DNA of 64,000 bases from Senegalia massiliensis (GTDB lineage Bacteria; Bacillota; Clostridia; Tissierellales; SIT17). The translations under genes were made by a program, and so were the position numbers. Below are positions 2,096 to 39,427 of the stretch, piece after piece. The first letter of the stretch is position 1, and each line of letters starts with the position of its first letter. The notes below the pieces were generated by a model. It did no database searches. It saw only the letters and a program-made list of their open reading frames with translations, and was not told the DNA's origin. The stretch lies in NCBI RefSeq assembly GCF_009911265.1, contig NZ_QXXA01000006.1, positions 1 to 64,000 of the forward strand, in the 5' to 3' direction.

Positions 2096-2252
2096 ATATC
2101 TCACCTCTTTTATTGTCTTAATATTCCAATTCTTCTCTTAATTCATATATATCCTATTAATATATTTATAAACATTTTTGATGTTTTTGTTAGTTATGTA
2201 TCATTATTGGTTATATATATTAATATAAATGAAAGTAAAAGAGGTGAAATTT

Positions 2253-3113
2253 GTGAAAGTTAGAAAGTTAAATATAAAAAACATAATACATAGTATGAAA
2301 TATAGAATAAAACACGATGAAGTTCCAGCACTCGGTGCTCAACTTACATATTATCTTATACTGTCATTTTTCCCTTTTTTAATATTTTTACTTACACTTT
2401 TAAGTCATACTTCAATTTCCACTTCAGATGTTATGGGTAATTTATCAGGTGTATTACCTGAACAGTCATTTTCATTAATATCCGATACAATTGAAGAAAT
2501 CTTACAAAATGGCTCTACACCACTTCTTTCTTTTTCTATTATAGGTACATTATGGTCATCTTCTAGTGGCGTTGCTGCCCTTATAAAAGGACTTAATAAA
2601 GCTTATGATCAAGAAGAAAATAGGCCATTTTTATTGTTAAGAGGTTTTGCAATTCTTATTACTATAGCACTTGTAATTGGTATTATGTTGACTTTTACTC
2701 TATTAGTATTTGGACAGATAATTGGAAACTATATATTTAGTCTTTTTAATCTAACCGAAGTATTCAGACAATTGTGGGCTACTATAAGATTTGCTTTTCC
2801 TATAATAATGCTTATAATTATGTTTACTCTTTTTTATAAATATGCTCCTAATAAAAAAAGATTAAAATTAAAAGAGGTGATACCTGGAGCATTGTTTACT
2901 ACAGCAGCATGGATAGGAATATCACTATTGTTTTCTTTTTATGTAAATAATTTTGGAAATTATGCTAAGACATATGGTAGTATTGGTGGTATAATAATTC
3001 TTTTAATTTGGTTATATATAAGTAGTATAATAATACTTATCGGTGGAGAATTGAATGCAACCCTTGCTTTTGATAAGGTCTCTATAGTAAAACAAATAGA
3101 AGATAAAAAATAA
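2253..3113 (+). CDS. YihY/BrkB family inner-membrane protein
   Basis: About 286 residues with six hydrophobic segments and the family signatures DEVPALGAQLTYYLILSFFP near the N terminus, a GTLWSSSSGVAAL segment, and IGGIIILLIWLYISSIIILI near the C terminus. I chose the GTG at 2253 because GAGGTG at 2241-2246 is well spaced for it; an ATG at 2229 in the same frame would add 8 residues but has no good site. The family (formerly annotated RNase BN) has an uncertain envelope or transport role. A terminator follows at once. Confidence 0.85.
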   Translation: MKVRKLNIKNIIHSMKYRIKHDEVPALGAQLTYYLILSFFPFLIFLLTLLSHTSISTSDVMGNLSGVLPEQSFSLISDTIEEILQNGSTPLLSFSIIGTLWSSSSGVAALIKGLNKAYDQEENRPFLLLRGFAILITIALVIGIMLTFTLLVFGQIIGNYIFSLFNLTEVFRQLWATIRFAFPIIMLIIMFTLFYKYAPNKKRLKLKEVIPGALFTTAAWIGISLLFSFYVNNFGNYAKTYGSIGGIIILLIWLYISSIIILIGGELNATLAFDKVSIVKQIEDKK

Positions 3114-3131
3114 AGACTCAGCTGAGTCTTT
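3112..3131 (+). terminator. Perfect 20-bp palindromic terminator
   Basis: AAAGACTCAGCTGAGTCTTT overlaps the YihY stop codon and is followed by TATTTTAT. It sits between convergent genes (YihY on plus, the thioredoxin-like gene on minus) and can serve both. Confidence 0.8.
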
Positions 3132-3134
3132 ATT

Positions 3135-3461
3135 TTATGAAAAAATCATTTTATAATACCTATTAATGCTGGAATCTAATTCATCAATAGTTATAAATTT
3201 ACTCATTTTTATAGCTTCTTTTCCTTCTATAAATAATATCACCGTAGGAGCTACAAATATTGAATATTGACCTTTTGCTTCTATATTATTATTTATATCT
3301 ACTTCAATAGATTTTATTTTAGGATACTTTTCTAATAACTTTTTTAGCTTTGGACCAAAGCCAACACAATTAGATCACATATCATCAGAAAAAAATAATA
3401 AAGTCATATTATTTTTATCAATTATTTTTTGTATTTCATCAAATGTATCTATTCTTTTCAT
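3135..3461 (-). CDS. Thioredoxin-like selenoprotein candidate (UXXC, in-frame TGA)
   Basis: Reading through one in-frame TGA gives a 108-residue thioredoxin-fold protein: MKRIDTFDEIQKII, strand TLLFFSDDM, then TGA-Ser-Asn-Cys at residues 29-32, GFGPKLKKLLEKYP, KSIEVDINNN, and the cis-proline region IFVAPTVILFIEG. The TGA sits at the first active-site cysteine, giving UXXC in place of CXXC, the usual position of selenocysteine in redox proteins. A SECIS-like hairpin follows it (3344-3364). The frame is otherwise intact, and AGAGGTG precedes the ATG at 3459-3461. It is cotranscribed downstream of the MATE gene, 13 nt after that stop. The alternative is a recent nonsense mutation. No selenocysteine genes lie in this window. 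Confidence 0.75.
3344..3377 (-). promoter_or_regulatory. Candidate bacterial SECIS element with its UGA
   Basis: The mRNA reads UGA (3377-3375), then 18 nt, then the loop GGUCC. The loop closes an 8-bp stem, UUGGCUUU paired with AAAGCUAA (one G-U), at 3364-3344. As I recall E. coli fdhF, its SECIS also has a GGUC-type apical loop 18 nt after the UGA. Confidence 0.7.
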
Positions 3462-3474
3462 ACTATCACCTCTT

Positions 3475-4833
3475 TTACCCTTCTTCTATTACATTTTTAA
3501 CCCATTTTTTTGATATTACTCTAGGTATTCCTATCATGGCTTTAACAAACTCTTCTAAAGACACCAATACTACAACAAAATATACTGGCAAGTTAAGAAT
3601 ATGACCTCCTATTATTGCCATTGGCACTCCTATAAGCCATACACTTCCAGCTTCAATAAACAATGAAGCTGTAGTATCTCCTCCCCCTCTTAATATACCA
3701 ACTATAAGGGTTGTATTAAATACCTTAAATGCCATAAATATAGCAAATACAATTAGTATTTTCTCTACATTTTCTCTTACTATAGCTGAAACTTCAAAAA
3801 ATGATATTATTAGAGGAGAAAAGACTATAATTAAAATTCCTATTATGATACCAATTAAAGGAGTTATAATAGAAAATCTCTTAGCATAGCCTATAGCTTG
3901 AGTTTCATCCTTTGCTCCAATACTATTTCCTATCATAACTGCAGCAGCATTTCCTATGCCCATAGATACAACCATAAATACCTGTTGAACTGTATTTGAA
4001 ATTTGAACAGATGCAAAAGCTTCTGTACTTATTCTTCCATATACAGCCGAATAAGTTATAACACCTAATGACCAAAAAGCTTCATTTAAAATCACTGGTG
4101 TTGTAGTTTTAACTATTCTCATTATAAATGCTTTTGATAAATCCTTCATTTCTCTTATCTTAGCATCAAGAACTAAACCTTTTCTATATATAGTTGTAAG
4201 CAATAATGTTAACTCGATTATCCTTGCAATTAGTGTAGCAATTGCAGCTCCTTTTATACCTAATTCAGGAAAGCCAAAGTTTCCAAATATTAGCAGATAA
4301 TTTAATATTGTATTTACTCCTAATGAAATTGCACTAACAATCATAGGTAATTTAGCATTTCCTATACTTCTAGCTGCAAAGGAATATGAAAATGTAATAG
4401 CAGTAATACTATAACTAAAACAAACTATCAACAAATAACTTACACCTAATTTAATTACTTCTTTATCATTAGTAAATATTCCAAGTATTTTTTCAGGAAT
4501 TAAAAGTGCTGACAGTGTAAAAACAAGAGAAATTAAGGTTCCACTTATAATAGAAAATCCTAACACTCTTCTAATATTAGTAATATCTCTTTTGCCCCAA
4601 TATTGAGATATAAAAATAGCTGAACCACTATTTAACCCAAACATCAAAAGGGTAAAAAAGAAAAAAAGTTGATTCGCAATACCTACTGATGCTATTGAAG
4701 TTTCACCTAATTTACCTATCATTACTGTATCTACCATGTTTAAAGAAGACGAAATTAAGTTTTGTATGGATATAGGAAGTGCTATTGAAATTAATCTTTT
4801 AAAAAATTGTTTATCATTTAATAAATCTTTCAT
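3475..4833 (-). CDS. MATE family efflux transporter
   Basis: A 452-residue protein with the twelve-helix, two-half layout of MATE exporters. The N-terminal half contains LPISIQNLISSSLNMVDTVMIGKLGE, typical of the family, and the second half a repeat-like segment around VSMGIGNAAAVMIGNSIGA. Such proteins expel cationic drugs or metabolites in exchange for Na+ or H+. The following thioredoxin-like selenoprotein candidate begins 13 nt after its stop, so the two form an operon. Substrate unknown. It is not a close copy of the second MATE gene at 14961-16355. Confidence 0.88.
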   Translation of the reverse strand: MKDLLNDKQFFKRLISIALPISIQNLISSSLNMVDTVMIGKLGETSIASVGIANQLFFFFTLLMFGLNSGSAIFISQYWGKRDITNIRRVLGFSIISGTLISLVFTLSALLIPEKILGIFTNDKEVIKLGVSYLLIVCFSYSITAITFSYSFAARSIGNAKLPMIVSAISLGVNTILNYLLIFGNFGFPELGIKGAAIATLIARIIELTLLLTTIYRKGLVLDAKIREMKDLSKAFIMRIVKTTTPVILNEAFWSLGVITYSAVYGRISTEAFASVQISNTVQQVFMVVSMGIGNAAAVMIGNSIGAKDETQAIGYAKRFSIITPLIGIIIGILIIVFSPLIISFFEVSAIVRENVEKILIVFAIFMAFKVFNTTLIVGILRGGGDTTASLFIEAGSVWLIGVPMAIIGGHILNLPVYFVVVLVSLEEFVKAMIGIPRVISKKWVKNVIEEG

Positions 4834-8675: not shown

Positions 8676-8721
8676 AAATAGTAATATTATGCATTACTAA
8701 GCATGCATAATATTACTATTT
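8676..8721 (-). terminator. Long inverted repeat across the end of the zinc-finger gene
   Basis: Two perfect 19-bp arms (AAATAGTAATATTATGCAT and its complement) separated by 8 nt. The hairpin overlaps the stop of the gene at 8697-9077 and ends 10 nt before the kinase gene. There is no clean T run, so it may act as a weak terminator or an RNA-processing or stability hairpin. Confidence 0.55.
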
Positions 8722-9077
8722 AAATATACTTCTATCTCTCTTCTATCGAAGCTAAATATCCCTTCTTTTTCATATAGATTCAAATTGTTAATATCTATAG
8801 AATGGATCAAGTTTTTATCTTCAATAAATAAATCATATATATTAGTTAAGTCCATTTTTTTAGGTCTATTTTCAAATGATAGTTCTAAAAATAATTTAGA
8901 TAAACTCTGTACAATATATACATCATATTTGCTAAATATAGTATCTCCACAACCTTCACATATTAATGCTCTAACTCCATAAAACCTTACTCTATATCTT
9001 CCCCAACCTGCTCTTACATCAGAAATACCTTCTTTTAGTTCTTCACCACATAAAAAACATCTTAACTTATTATTCAT
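8697..9077 (-). CDS. YgiT-type zinc-finger protein (possible antitoxin)
   Basis: 126 residues. The N terminus carries two CXXC pairs, C7/C10 (RCFLCGEEL) and C40/C43 (LICEGCGDTIF), around a short beta-rich stretch with GRYRVRFYGV, the layout of a YgiT/MqsA-like zinc domain. The rest is helical, with no clear XRE-type helix-turn-helix. Its start overlaps the end of the upstream DUF4258 gene by 8 nt, so they are translationally coupled, as in toxin-antitoxin modules where a DUF4258 or MqsR-like protein pairs with a zinc-finger partner. The toxin-antitoxin role is an inference. Confidence 0.65.
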   Translation of the reverse strand: MNNKLRCFLCGEELKEGISDVRAGWGRYRVRFYGVRALICEGCGDTIFSKYDVYIVQSLSKLFLELSFENRPKKMDLTNIYDLFIEDKNLIHSIDINNLNLYEKEGIFSFDRREIEVYLNSNIMHA

Positions 9078-9420
9078 CTTCTTCTTTCCTCCTCATAATT
9101 CCATCTACCATTTCCCATACATCTTCTTTGAAATGACAAACTGATATTACTAAAGGCGGTATTGCTAAAGCAACTACAGAATAATATTTAGGATCTTGTG
9201 ATTTAGGTTGCTGAAATAAAAACTTTATATCTTTACCATGATATTGTTTTTCTATAGGATCTCCAAGTGAAGCACTTCCCTCTACATCTTCAACTTCTAT
9301 TCCCCTTTGACACATTCTCTCTATGGCATGCTTACTATAATATAAAGAATCTCTTTTTGTAGATTCAATTATATAATCTTGTTCATTCCTAAATTCTTTT
9401 TTTACTAAATCTAATTCCAC
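9070..9420 (-). CDS. DUF4258 family protein (possible toxin)
   Basis: A 116-residue protein with YSKHAIERMCQRGIEVEDVE near residue 28, the typical opening of DUF4258 (S-HA-ERM--RGI), followed by a beta-rich body ending in ALAIPPLVISVCHF. DUF4258 is related to RelE/MqsR-type RNase folds and is often paired with a zinc-finger or antitoxin partner. It is the first gene of the pair, directly upstream of the YgiT-like gene. No classical catalytic set can be assigned by eye. Confidence 0.65.
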   Translation of the reverse strand: MELDLVKKEFRNEQDYIIESTKRDSLYYSKHAIERMCQRGIEVEDVEGSASLGDPIEKQYHGKDIKFLFQQPKSQDPKYYSVVALAIPPLVISVCHFKEDVWEMVDGIMRRKEEDE

Positions 9421-36640: not shown

Positions 36641-36678
36641 AAAAAAGAATTCGATCTAAAAAGATCGAATTCTTTTTT
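36641..36678. terminator. Bidirectional terminator between dhaM and arsC
   Basis: 17-bp perfect arms AAAAAAGAATTCGATCT and complement around loop AAAA; serves the convergent dha and ars operons. Confidence 0.88.
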
Positions 36679-37078
36679 ATATTTCGTTTTTGTTAATTCT
36701 ATTTATTAAATCTTCTACTTTTCTTCTAATTATTTCTCTAGTTTCTCTAAAGTCTTTTATGGATCCTCCTGATGGGTCTTCCAATCCCCAGTCTTCATTA
36801 TGACTATTAGGAACATAAGGACACACTACATTACATCCCATAGTAATTAATATATCAATTTTTTGTGGAATGTCCTTTAATAACTTTGGATAGTGACCTT
36901 TCATATCTATTCCCACTTCTTCCATTACTGATACTGCTTTAGGCTTAACTTCATGATACTCTTCTGTTCCTGCAGAGTAGATTTCCATTATATCATTACC
37001 TAATTTTTTAGCCCAGGCTTCAGCCATTTGAGATCTACATGAATTATGAACACATAAAAATGCAACTTTCTTTTTCAT
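36677..37078 (-). CDS. arsC: Arsenate reductase, thioredoxin-coupled (LMW-PTP type)
   Basis: 133 residues. CVHNSCRS provides the C-x5-R loop (C9, R15), and ITMGCNVVCPYVP the two further cysteines that relay the disulfide to thioredoxin. DWGLEDPSGG is the DP motif with the general acid. It reduces arsenate to arsenite for export by the Acr3 protein encoded 20 nt upstream. Last gene of the arsenic operon. Confidence 0.92.
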   Translation of the reverse strand: MKKKVAFLCVHNSCRSQMAEAWAKKLGNDIMEIYSAGTEEYHEVKPKAVSVMEEVGIDMKGHYPKLLKDIPQKIDILITMGCNVVCPYVPNSHNEDWGLEDPSGGSIKDFRETREIIRRKVEDLINRINKNEI

Positions 37079-37098
37079 ATCATCTAACTCCTTATATA

Positions 37099-38157
37099 TT
37101 ATCTATCATAAGCAAACCAACTTTTAGTATTATTTGCTATTTTAACAAGTGTAAGCATAACTGGAACCTCAACAAGTACACCTACTACAGTTGCCAGTGT
37201 TGCTCCTGATTCTAGTCCAAACAATGAAATTGCTACTGCAACAGCTAATTCAAAAAAGTTAGATGCACCTATCATTCCAGCTGGAGCTGCTATATTATGT
37301 GGTAACTTCCAAACTTTCGCCCATAAGTAGGCTATAAAGAAAATTAAAAATGTTTGAATTATAAGTGGTACAGCTATAAGAGCTATATCAATAGGATTAT
37401 CCACAATTGTTTCACCCTGAAAAGAGAATATTATTATAAGTGTTAATAATAGTCCTATAATTGTGATGTTGCTAAATTTAGGGATATACACTTTTTCAAA
37501 ATATTCTTGCCCTTTATTTTTAGTTATAATAAATCTTGACAACCAACCTGCTACTAAAGGAATAACTACAAATAATACTACAGATAAAAATAAAGTATTC
37601 CAAGGAATTGATATATCTCCTATTCCTAATAAAAATGCAACTATTGGAACAAATGCCATTAATATAATTAAATCATTTGTAGCTACTTGTACCAATGTAT
37701 ATGCAGGATTACCTCTGGTCAAATGACTCCAAACAAATACCATTGCAGTACAAGGTGCTGCTCCTAAAAGTACAGCTCCTGCTAAATATTCTTTTGCTAA
37801 TTCAGATGATATAAAGTCTTTAAATACTATATTCAGAAAAAAACTTGCTATCAAATACATAGAGAAAGGCTTAATAAGCCAATTAGATATCCATGTAATA
37901 ATAAGTCCTTTAGGTGTTTCTTTAACTTTTTTAACACTATGAAAGTCAACTTTTAGCATCATTGGATAAATCATTAACCATATAAGTATTGCTACTGGTA
38001 TAGAGACATTTGCATACTCAAATTTACTTAATAAATTTGGAATTCCAGGTAAATATACCCCTATACCAATTCCTATTGCCATACATAAAGCTACCCAAAT
38101 TGTAAGATACTTCTCAAAAAAGCTTATGCCCGATTTTAACACTTCTTTCTTTTGCAT
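37099..38157 (-). CDS. acr3: Acr3 family arsenite exporter
   Basis: 352 residues, ten helices. VLLGAAPCTAMVFVWSHLTRGNPAY carries the conserved cysteine of the family, and AAPAGMIGASNFFELAVAVA is a second hallmark. It pumps arsenite out using the proton gradient. Two nucleotides separate it from the thioredoxin-like gene upstream. Confidence 0.92.
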   Translation of the reverse strand: MQKKEVLKSGISFFEKYLTIWVALCMAIGIGIGVYLPGIPNLLSKFEYANVSIPVAILIWLMIYPMMLKVDFHSVKKVKETPKGLIITWISNWLIKPFSMYLIASFFLNIVFKDFISSELAKEYLAGAVLLGAAPCTAMVFVWSHLTRGNPAYTLVQVATNDLIILMAFVPIVAFLLGIGDISIPWNTLFLSVVLFVVIPLVAGWLSRFIITKNKGQEYFEKVYIPKFSNITIIGLLLTLIIIFSFQGETIVDNPIDIALIAVPLIIQTFLIFFIAYLWAKVWKLPHNIAAPAGMIGASNFFELAVAVAISLFGLESGATLATVVGVLVEVPVMLTLVKIANNTKSWFAYDR

Positions 38158-38158
38158 A

Positions 38159-38398
38159 TTACCTTTCCTTTTCTATATACTTAATTATTTCTTTTGCTTT
38201 ATTCACTTTTCCACTTGATATAACTTTTTCATCTATAACAAGTGCAGGAGTTTTCATTACTCCATATTTCATAATTTCTTGAACCTCAGTTACTTTTTCA
38301 ACTTCTGCATCAATCTTTAATTCTTTTACAGCTTCCTTTACATTGTCTACAACCTTATCACATTTTGCACATCCTGAACCTAAAACTTTGATTTTCAT
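38159..38398 (-). CDS. Small thioredoxin-family protein (ars operon)
   Basis: 79 residues. KVLGSGCAKCDKVVDNV has redox pair C10/C13; MKTPALVIDEKVISSG contains the cis-proline. Glutaredoxin-sized thioredoxins of this type occur beside permeases and ars genes and may reduce ArsC or handle metals. Lies between the permease gene (24 nt) and acr3 (2 nt). Confidence 0.85.
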   Translation of the reverse strand: MKIKVLGSGCAKCDKVVDNVKEAVKELKIDAEVEKVTEVQEIMKYGVMKTPALVIDEKVISSGKVNKAKEIIKYIEKER

Positions 38399-38422
38399 TA
38401 TAAATCACTCCTATTTTTTATT

Positions 38423-39427
38423 TTATATTAATAAATATCCAAAAATATTAAATAAATAACCTATAATTAATATGCCTATTGTTACTATAACTATAAATAA
38501 CCCTAAAAGCTTCTTTTTTACAACCTTTGAAAGCATAACCATTGAAGGAAAAGATAAAGCAGTAACACTCATCATAAATGCTAAAGCTGTTCCAAGTCCC
38601 ACTCCTTTAGCAACTAATGCTTCTGCAATAGGTAAAGTTCCAAATATATCTGCATACATAGGAATTCCTACAAATGATGCAATTATTACAGAATACCAAT
38701 TTTCTTTTCCAAGTACAGCAGATATGAAACTCTGAGGTATATAATTATGAATAGCAGCTCCTATACCCACTCCAATTAGTATATATAACCATACTTTATT
38801 TATTATATCTATAACCTGATTTTTAGAAAATTCAAGTCTTTGTTTTATACTAAGATCTTCTTCCCCATTGTTATGAACAGGATTATTAAATACAAAAGGT
38901 TCAACATATTTTTCTAATTTCATTTTACTTATAATTCCGCCGCCAATTACAGCAAGTATTATTCCAACAACAACATAACTAATAGCAATCTGCCAATTAA
39001 ATATACTAGCAAGTAATATAACTGATGCTAAATCTACAAGTGGAGAAGATATTAAAAATGAAAATGTAACTCCTATAGGAAGTCCCGCACTTGTAAAACC
39101 TATAAAAAGTGGTATTGATGAACAAGAACAAAATGGAGTTACAGTTCCTAAAAGTGCTGCTAAAATATTAGCTTTTATGCCATTAAATCTACCTAGTATT
39201 CTCCTAGTTCTTTCAGGTGGAAAAAAAGATTGAATATATGAAATCGAAAAAATTAAAATAGATAATAATATAAATATCTTAATTACATCATATATGAAAA
39301 AATGTATACTATTACCTAACTTTGTTGATATACTCAAATTAAATACATCTTCAACAAAAATTCTAACTAAATTAGAAAGCCAATCCATCTTTAATAATTG
39401 TGAATTTATAAACTCAAATATAAACAC
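38423..39427 (-). CDS. Permease (YraQ/SO_0444 type)
   Basis: 334 residues with about eight helices. TVTPFCSCSSIPLFIGFTSAGLP has the C-S-C motif of this family, with a repeat-like half at VGIPMYADIFGTLPIAEALVAKG. Such proteins in ars operons are proposed to export metals or organoarsenicals. It overlaps the arsR stop by one base. Confidence 0.85.
   Translation of the reverse strand: MFIFEFINSQLLKMDWLSNLVRIFVEDVFNLSISTKLGNSIHFFIYDVIKIFILLSILIFSISYIQSFFPPERTRRILGRFNGIKANILAALLGTVTPFCSCSSIPLFIGFTSAGLPIGVTFSFLISSPLVDLASVILLASIFNWQIAISYVVVGIILAVIGGGIISKMKLEKYVEPFVFNNPVHNNGEEDLSIKQRLEFSKNQVIDIINKVWLYILIGVGIGAAIHNYIPQSFISAVLGKENWYSVIIASFVGIPMYADIFGTLPIAEALVAKGVGLGTALAFMMSVTALSFPSMVMLSKVVKKKLLGLFIVIVTIGILIIGYLFNIFGYLLI

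Follow-up and report, generated by a model that had tools for sequence, protein, structure and literature searches.

The thioredoxin-like locus and its neighborhood

The window, i.e., the whole 64,000-nucleotide stretch of Senegalia massiliensis DNA analyzed here, contains a minus-strand frame of 109 codons (3461 to 3135) whose single internal stop is a UGA at codon 29 (Table 1). Translated with TGA read as U, the frame gives MKRIDTFDEIQKIIDKNNMTLLFFSDDM-U-SNCVGFGPKLKK...YYKMIFS*. The upstream context of its start reads AAGAGGTGATAGT-ATG, and the element AGAGGTGA lying just 5' of the start is Shine-Dalgarno-like. This thioredoxin-like (trx) gene has a normal start and a normal end, with the UGA between them; gene callers that take UGA as a stop can be expected to miss such a gene or cut it in two. 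The initial annotation had described a complete thioredoxin-like frame, preceded by a good ribosome-binding site and bearing one internal TGA at the first redox cysteine (U-S-N-C). Its coordinates, given with no strand, are right and refer to the minus strand; its readings of the upstream signal and of the UGA as the sole internal stop are right as well.

Table 1. Coordinates of the features at the trx locus in the window and of the copies of the gene in genus g293
Feature	Position	Strand	Remarks and basis
Thioredoxin-like selenoprotein gene	3135..3461	-	108 residues if the UGA is decoded as Sec; ATG at 3461, TAA stop ending at 3135
In-frame UGA, codon 29	3375..3377	-	First active-site cysteine (U-S-N-C); frame translation and homologue alignment
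SECIS-type hairpin, UUGGCUUU-GGUCC-AAAGCUAA	3344..3364	-	Loop is nt 19-23 after the UGA; folding, SECIS rules and synonymous recoding; identical in sister species G001
Ribosome-binding region, AGAGGTGA	3464..3474	-	Between MATE stop and ATG; sequence reading
Intrinsic-terminator-like hairpin and T tail	3107..3136	-	At the true TAA stop; sequence analysis
MATE-family exporter gene	3475..4833	-	Directly upstream of trx, ending 13 nt before its ATG; frame list and genus synteny
YihY/BrkB-family membrane protein gene	2229..3113	+	Convergent neighbor, stays near the locus within the genus; frame list and genus synteny
g293 copy, G603	L071 3679-3999	+	C-F-U-G-S
g293 copy, G760	L075 3562-3882	-	C-F-U-G-N
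g293 copy, G759	L076 3758-4069	+	K-F-U-G-S

The MATE and trx genes are probably co-transcribed. In the window, the gene order is NhaC-like, MATE, trx and YihY; in another species of the genus, G003, it is NhaC-like, MATE, AbgT transporter, trx, aminotransferase and YihY, with a MATE protein 78% identical to that of the window. The G003 trx product has the active site C-S-A-C and shares 47% identity with the window protein. By gene order and alignment, the two trx genes are positional orthologues, one predicted to be a Sec form and the other a Cys form. A further species of the genus, G002, lacks the trx gene and yet has selA. A functional link between the MATE and trx genes was considered and rejected, because the AbgT gene separates them in G003 and other lineages have other neighbors. 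The pairing, which the initial annotation had left unexplained, does exist; it is interrupted in G003 and, judged by gene order, is local genus-level synteny rather than a functional clue.

Two further sets of genes were observed elsewhere in the window. An arsenic-resistance-type cluster at 36677-39427 (minus strand), named from the translations, comprises in a row an ArsC-like reductase, an Acr3-like arsenite exporter and a CSCS-containing permease. At 8697-9420 (minus strand) lie two small adjoining genes, DUF4258-like followed by zinc-finger YgiT/MqsA-like, which on reading resemble a toxin-antitoxin pair.

Protein family and coding constraint past the UGA

A profile search with the translated protein matched the Pfam Thioredoxin family PF00085 at 42.1 bits (cut-off 23.5). 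The AlphaFold2 model of the 108-residue protein is a confident thioredoxin fold (pLDDT 91.2), and a Foldseek search with this predicted model returned thioredoxins as the top structural matches (TM about 0.82-0.91). Score and fold both place the product in the thioredoxin domain family. The scores against the TrxA equivalogs TIGR01068 and NF047697 lie far below their cut-offs, at 37.2 versus 96.8 bits and 32.3 versus 140 bits, respectively. By these profile scores and the homologue alignment, the predicted protein is a member of a divergent Trx-like subfamily outside the TrxA models, marked by a conserved C-terminal RYY. The closest sequence with a solved structure is PDB 4euy, which is titled only "Uncharacterized protein". 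Residue 29 aligns with the first Cys of the CxxC motif in all close homologues except the other Sec lineages, so that both Cys and TGA are found at this residue, as a comparison suggested by the initial annotation was meant to reveal. P72 is invariant across the alignment of close homologues and matches the expected position of the thioredoxin cis-proline.

A sister species, G001, carries a copy with 95% DNA identity and 94% protein identity, the same UGA, the same hairpin and the same neighbors. In codons 30-108, nine synonymous and two non-synonymous changes separate the two copies (omega about 0.07, with P about 1e-4 relative to neutrality), indicating that the sequence after the UGA is protein-coding. 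The 28 codons 5' of the UGA show four amino-acid changes and one synonymous change, too few to judge. These data bear on the reading under which a Cys codon (TGT or TGC) was mutated or miscalled to TGA, leaving either a dead gene or a plain Cys gene. One base change would suffice for this, in the close Cys relatives that very codon is TGT or TGC, and an isolated case would look identical. However, G001 was assembled separately and has the same TGA, the 79 codons past it evolve as coding sequence, there is no other stop or frameshift, and the start, ribosome-binding region and terminator are intact. The shared UGA together with the purifying selection constitutes a strong argument against a pseudogene or sequencing error. 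We consider such an origin very improbable and, on this comparison, largely refuted already by G001. Nor do the close relatives have unrelated stops in the frame, which the initial annotation had named as a sign against its proposal.

The SECIS-type hairpin and the selenocysteine machinery

The sequence 3' of the UGA reads UCUAAUUGUG UUGGCUUU GGUCC AAAGCUAA and forms a stem of 8 bp, or 9 if the loop-closing G-C pair is counted, with the loop beginning 18 nt past the UGA. There was no Rfam match within the window, and the element was hence assessed by the published rules for bacterial SECIS elements (PMC13188914), which it satisfies. The bare hairpin, at -7.5 kcal/mol, lies exactly at the energy limit of these rules and reaches -10.7 to -11.7 with the flanking basal helix. 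Counting both strands, the window has 2021 TGAs, of which only 18 (0.9%) pass the rules. The fold z of the hairpin region is about -2.7 to -3.4, and when its 15 codons were recoded synonymously 5000 times, leaving the peptide unchanged, only 0.16% of the variants folded equally strongly. The spacing and stem of the hairpin with the GGUCC loop, which the initial annotation first described and likened to the GGUC-type loop of E. coli fdhF, are reproduced, and the element folds beyond chance. It is identical in the window's genome and G001, and so provides no covariation between these two close UGA-bearing species. Cys homologues are mostly devoid of a comparable structure at this position; three of them fold to -10 to -11 with differently positioned hairpins, which means that folding energy alone is not diagnostic.

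The known selenoprotein genes of the same genome offer a standard for comparison. The grdB element, GUUGC-GGU-GCAAC, likewise has 18 nt before its loop, selD has a stem with the loop GUU at 33 nt, and a search of grdA for a hairpin fitting the SECIS model found none that fits. By this scoring, none of the elements in the genome's known selenoprotein genes fits the SECIS model better than that of the trx gene.

The presence of selB and selC is accepted as the signature of a Sec-decoding genome (PMC1273633). Both are present in the genome, along with selA and selD, so that the full set for which the initial annotation had proposed a search is accounted for; a lack of selB and selC would have spoken against it. 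On contig C4, selC scores 69.9 bits (gathering score 47), and selA, selB and selD each exceed their cut-offs. The genes selD, selA and selB adjoin one another, with selC within about 10 kb. The selD gene, directly beside selA and selB (G000:C4:41500-51000), itself contains a UGA (...TAASG-U-AAKIG), as do this genome's grdA and grdB. A glycine-reductase operon (G000:C1:112500-124000) combines trxB and a Cys-form trxA (active site C-E-P-C) with the UGA-containing grdA and grdB. All relatives tested have selA, including the carriers of Cys forms and G002, and the machinery alone hence does not discriminate Sec from Cys carriers.

In general, a UGA decoded as Sec is also open to termination, and some truncated product is to be expected here too. 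This raises the idea that the UGA is a real stop acting as a regulatory attenuator, which would usually yield only a 28-residue peptide, with the full protein made solely when selenium is high or read-through is leaky. We hold this to be very unlikely: a SECIS-type hairpin and the full Sec machinery are present, and the sequence beyond the UGA is under constraint, which speaks for the full protein as the product under selection. A near-cognate or suppressor tRNA that reads the UGA as Trp or Cys would likewise account for a full-length product and for the coding constraint beyond the UGA, but this is extremely unlikely in view of a tRNA-Sec well over its gathering score with selA, selB and selD, the placement of the UGA exactly at the redox Cys and before a Sec-type hairpin, and the classical selenoproteins GrdA, GrdB and SelD as the genome's other UGA genes.

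Selenocysteine is thus very probably inserted at codon 29, as initially proposed; the Sec genes, the Cys and UGA homologues, the fit to the SECIS model and the purifying selection seen with G001 all support this reading. The product would be a thioredoxin-like thiol/selenol oxidoreductase. In the mechanism that we envisage, SelD would supply selenophosphate and SelA would convert Ser-tRNA(Sec) to Sec-tRNA(Sec). SelB-GTP, loaded with the latter, would bind the hairpin and bring Sec to the ribosome, competing there with release factor 2. Once complete, the 108-residue chain would fold as a thioredoxin in which the Sec29 selenolate attacks the substrate and Cys32 then resolves the mixed intermediate, giving a selenenyl-sulfide (U29-C32). 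Regeneration of the protein could fall to a thioredoxin reductase, possibly the TrxB encoded beside the glycine-reductase genes.

Predicted Sec forms and Cys forms across the subfamily, and known selenoproteins

Homologue searches of the order (249 genomes), the class (391) and one family (207) recovered mostly Cys forms, together with three further lineages with a UGA at or beside the site. One copy, that of G094, is identical to that of S. hydroxybenzoicus, from which we infer that the order of the window's genome, which we take to be Tissierellales, includes Sedimentibacter. The first UGA lineage, G065 (L065 4080-4373, plus strand), is a more distant relative from another family of the order; it has U-S-V-C with the UGA at the same column and is apparently an independent Sec form. 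The second, G241 (L063 880-1167, minus strand), has U-S-V-S, with the UGA again at the same column and Ser in place of the resolving Cys. In the third, the clostridial genus g293, three species share F-U-G-(S/N), in which the UGA is one residue further on and has no CxxC partner. The selA gene is present in each of the three genomes tested from these lineages (G065, G241 and G603). The g293 hairpin has the loop UGUA, starting 18 nt after the UGA, and among its three sequences one pair of the stem is kept as A-U, G-U and G-C; with three sequences and one double change, this covariation does not exceed that of shuffles. The alignment is consistent with g293 possibly having a single-Sec variant conserved in three species. 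If so, its protein would be a single-selenol redox protein with different chemistry.

The stop-flagged rows from G295, G161 and G314 were discarded, because their stops are ordinary C-terminal ones and their CxxC or CxLC sites are intact. In G195 there is an internal TAA, which does not lie near the active site. Among phage records, no relative of the trx gene was found. A search of the plasmid collection yielded eight records, and the two examined, from Peptoclostridium and Acetoanaerobium, are Cys forms.

A tree of 40 members requires four changes of the Sec label (bootstrap range 3-4), at least two of them forced by well-supported branches; the deep branches are weak and do not settle the direction of Cys/Sec change. 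The three further UGA lineages at or beside the site suggest that the exchange probably occurred several times. We lean slightly towards the broader view that the subfamily repeatedly swaps Cys and Sec, with four UGA branches that include a within-genus pair, and with a shift of Sec and loss of the resolving Cys in g293. The locus in the window would offer a natural experiment: within one genus, two species have the Sec form and a third has the Cys form at the corresponding chromosomal position, and measurements on these orthologues could show what a thioredoxin-like protein gains from selenium.

The Cys-form members of the subfamily, annotated as "thioredoxin family protein", include those of Sedimentibacter, Peptoclostridium acidaminophilum (WP_025436897.1) and the PDB 4euy protein; to our knowledge, none has an established function. 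They have the same length as the window protein and align with it end to end at about 27-47% identity, with P72 and a GKE motif conserved and their CxxC aligned to its UxxC. They differ in having Cys for Sec and, mostly, in lacking a comparable hairpin. A limited literature search did not find this subfamily described as selenoproteins.

Two thioredoxin-like NCBIfam selenoprotein families with UxxC, SaoT NF040730 and HUIPC-motif NF047660 (PMC13188914), resemble the window protein in both these respects and are absent among its NCBIfam matches at E <= 0.001. Thioredoxin selenoproteins with UxxC in PF00085 are themselves an established family (PMC13188914, PMC9312934). Seven were counted in PMC1794560, and those of Treponema denticola, Geobacter and Carboxydothermus are listed (PMC13188914, PMC1794560), with Treponema, Geobacter and Carboxydothermus among the hosts in the former count. 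The window protein shares with them the thioredoxin domain, a Sec (here predicted) at the position of the first active-site Cys, a resolving Cys three residues on, and a UGA-containing gene in a host with SelABCD. Unlike these Sec-thioredoxins, which were compared by description, it has U-S-N-C, scores far below the TrxA cut-offs and belongs to the divergent subfamily with RYY. The gene hence very probably encodes a new thioredoxin selenoprotein within an already known class of UxxC thioredoxin selenoproteins, in a Trx-like subfamily that the TrxA models do not cover.
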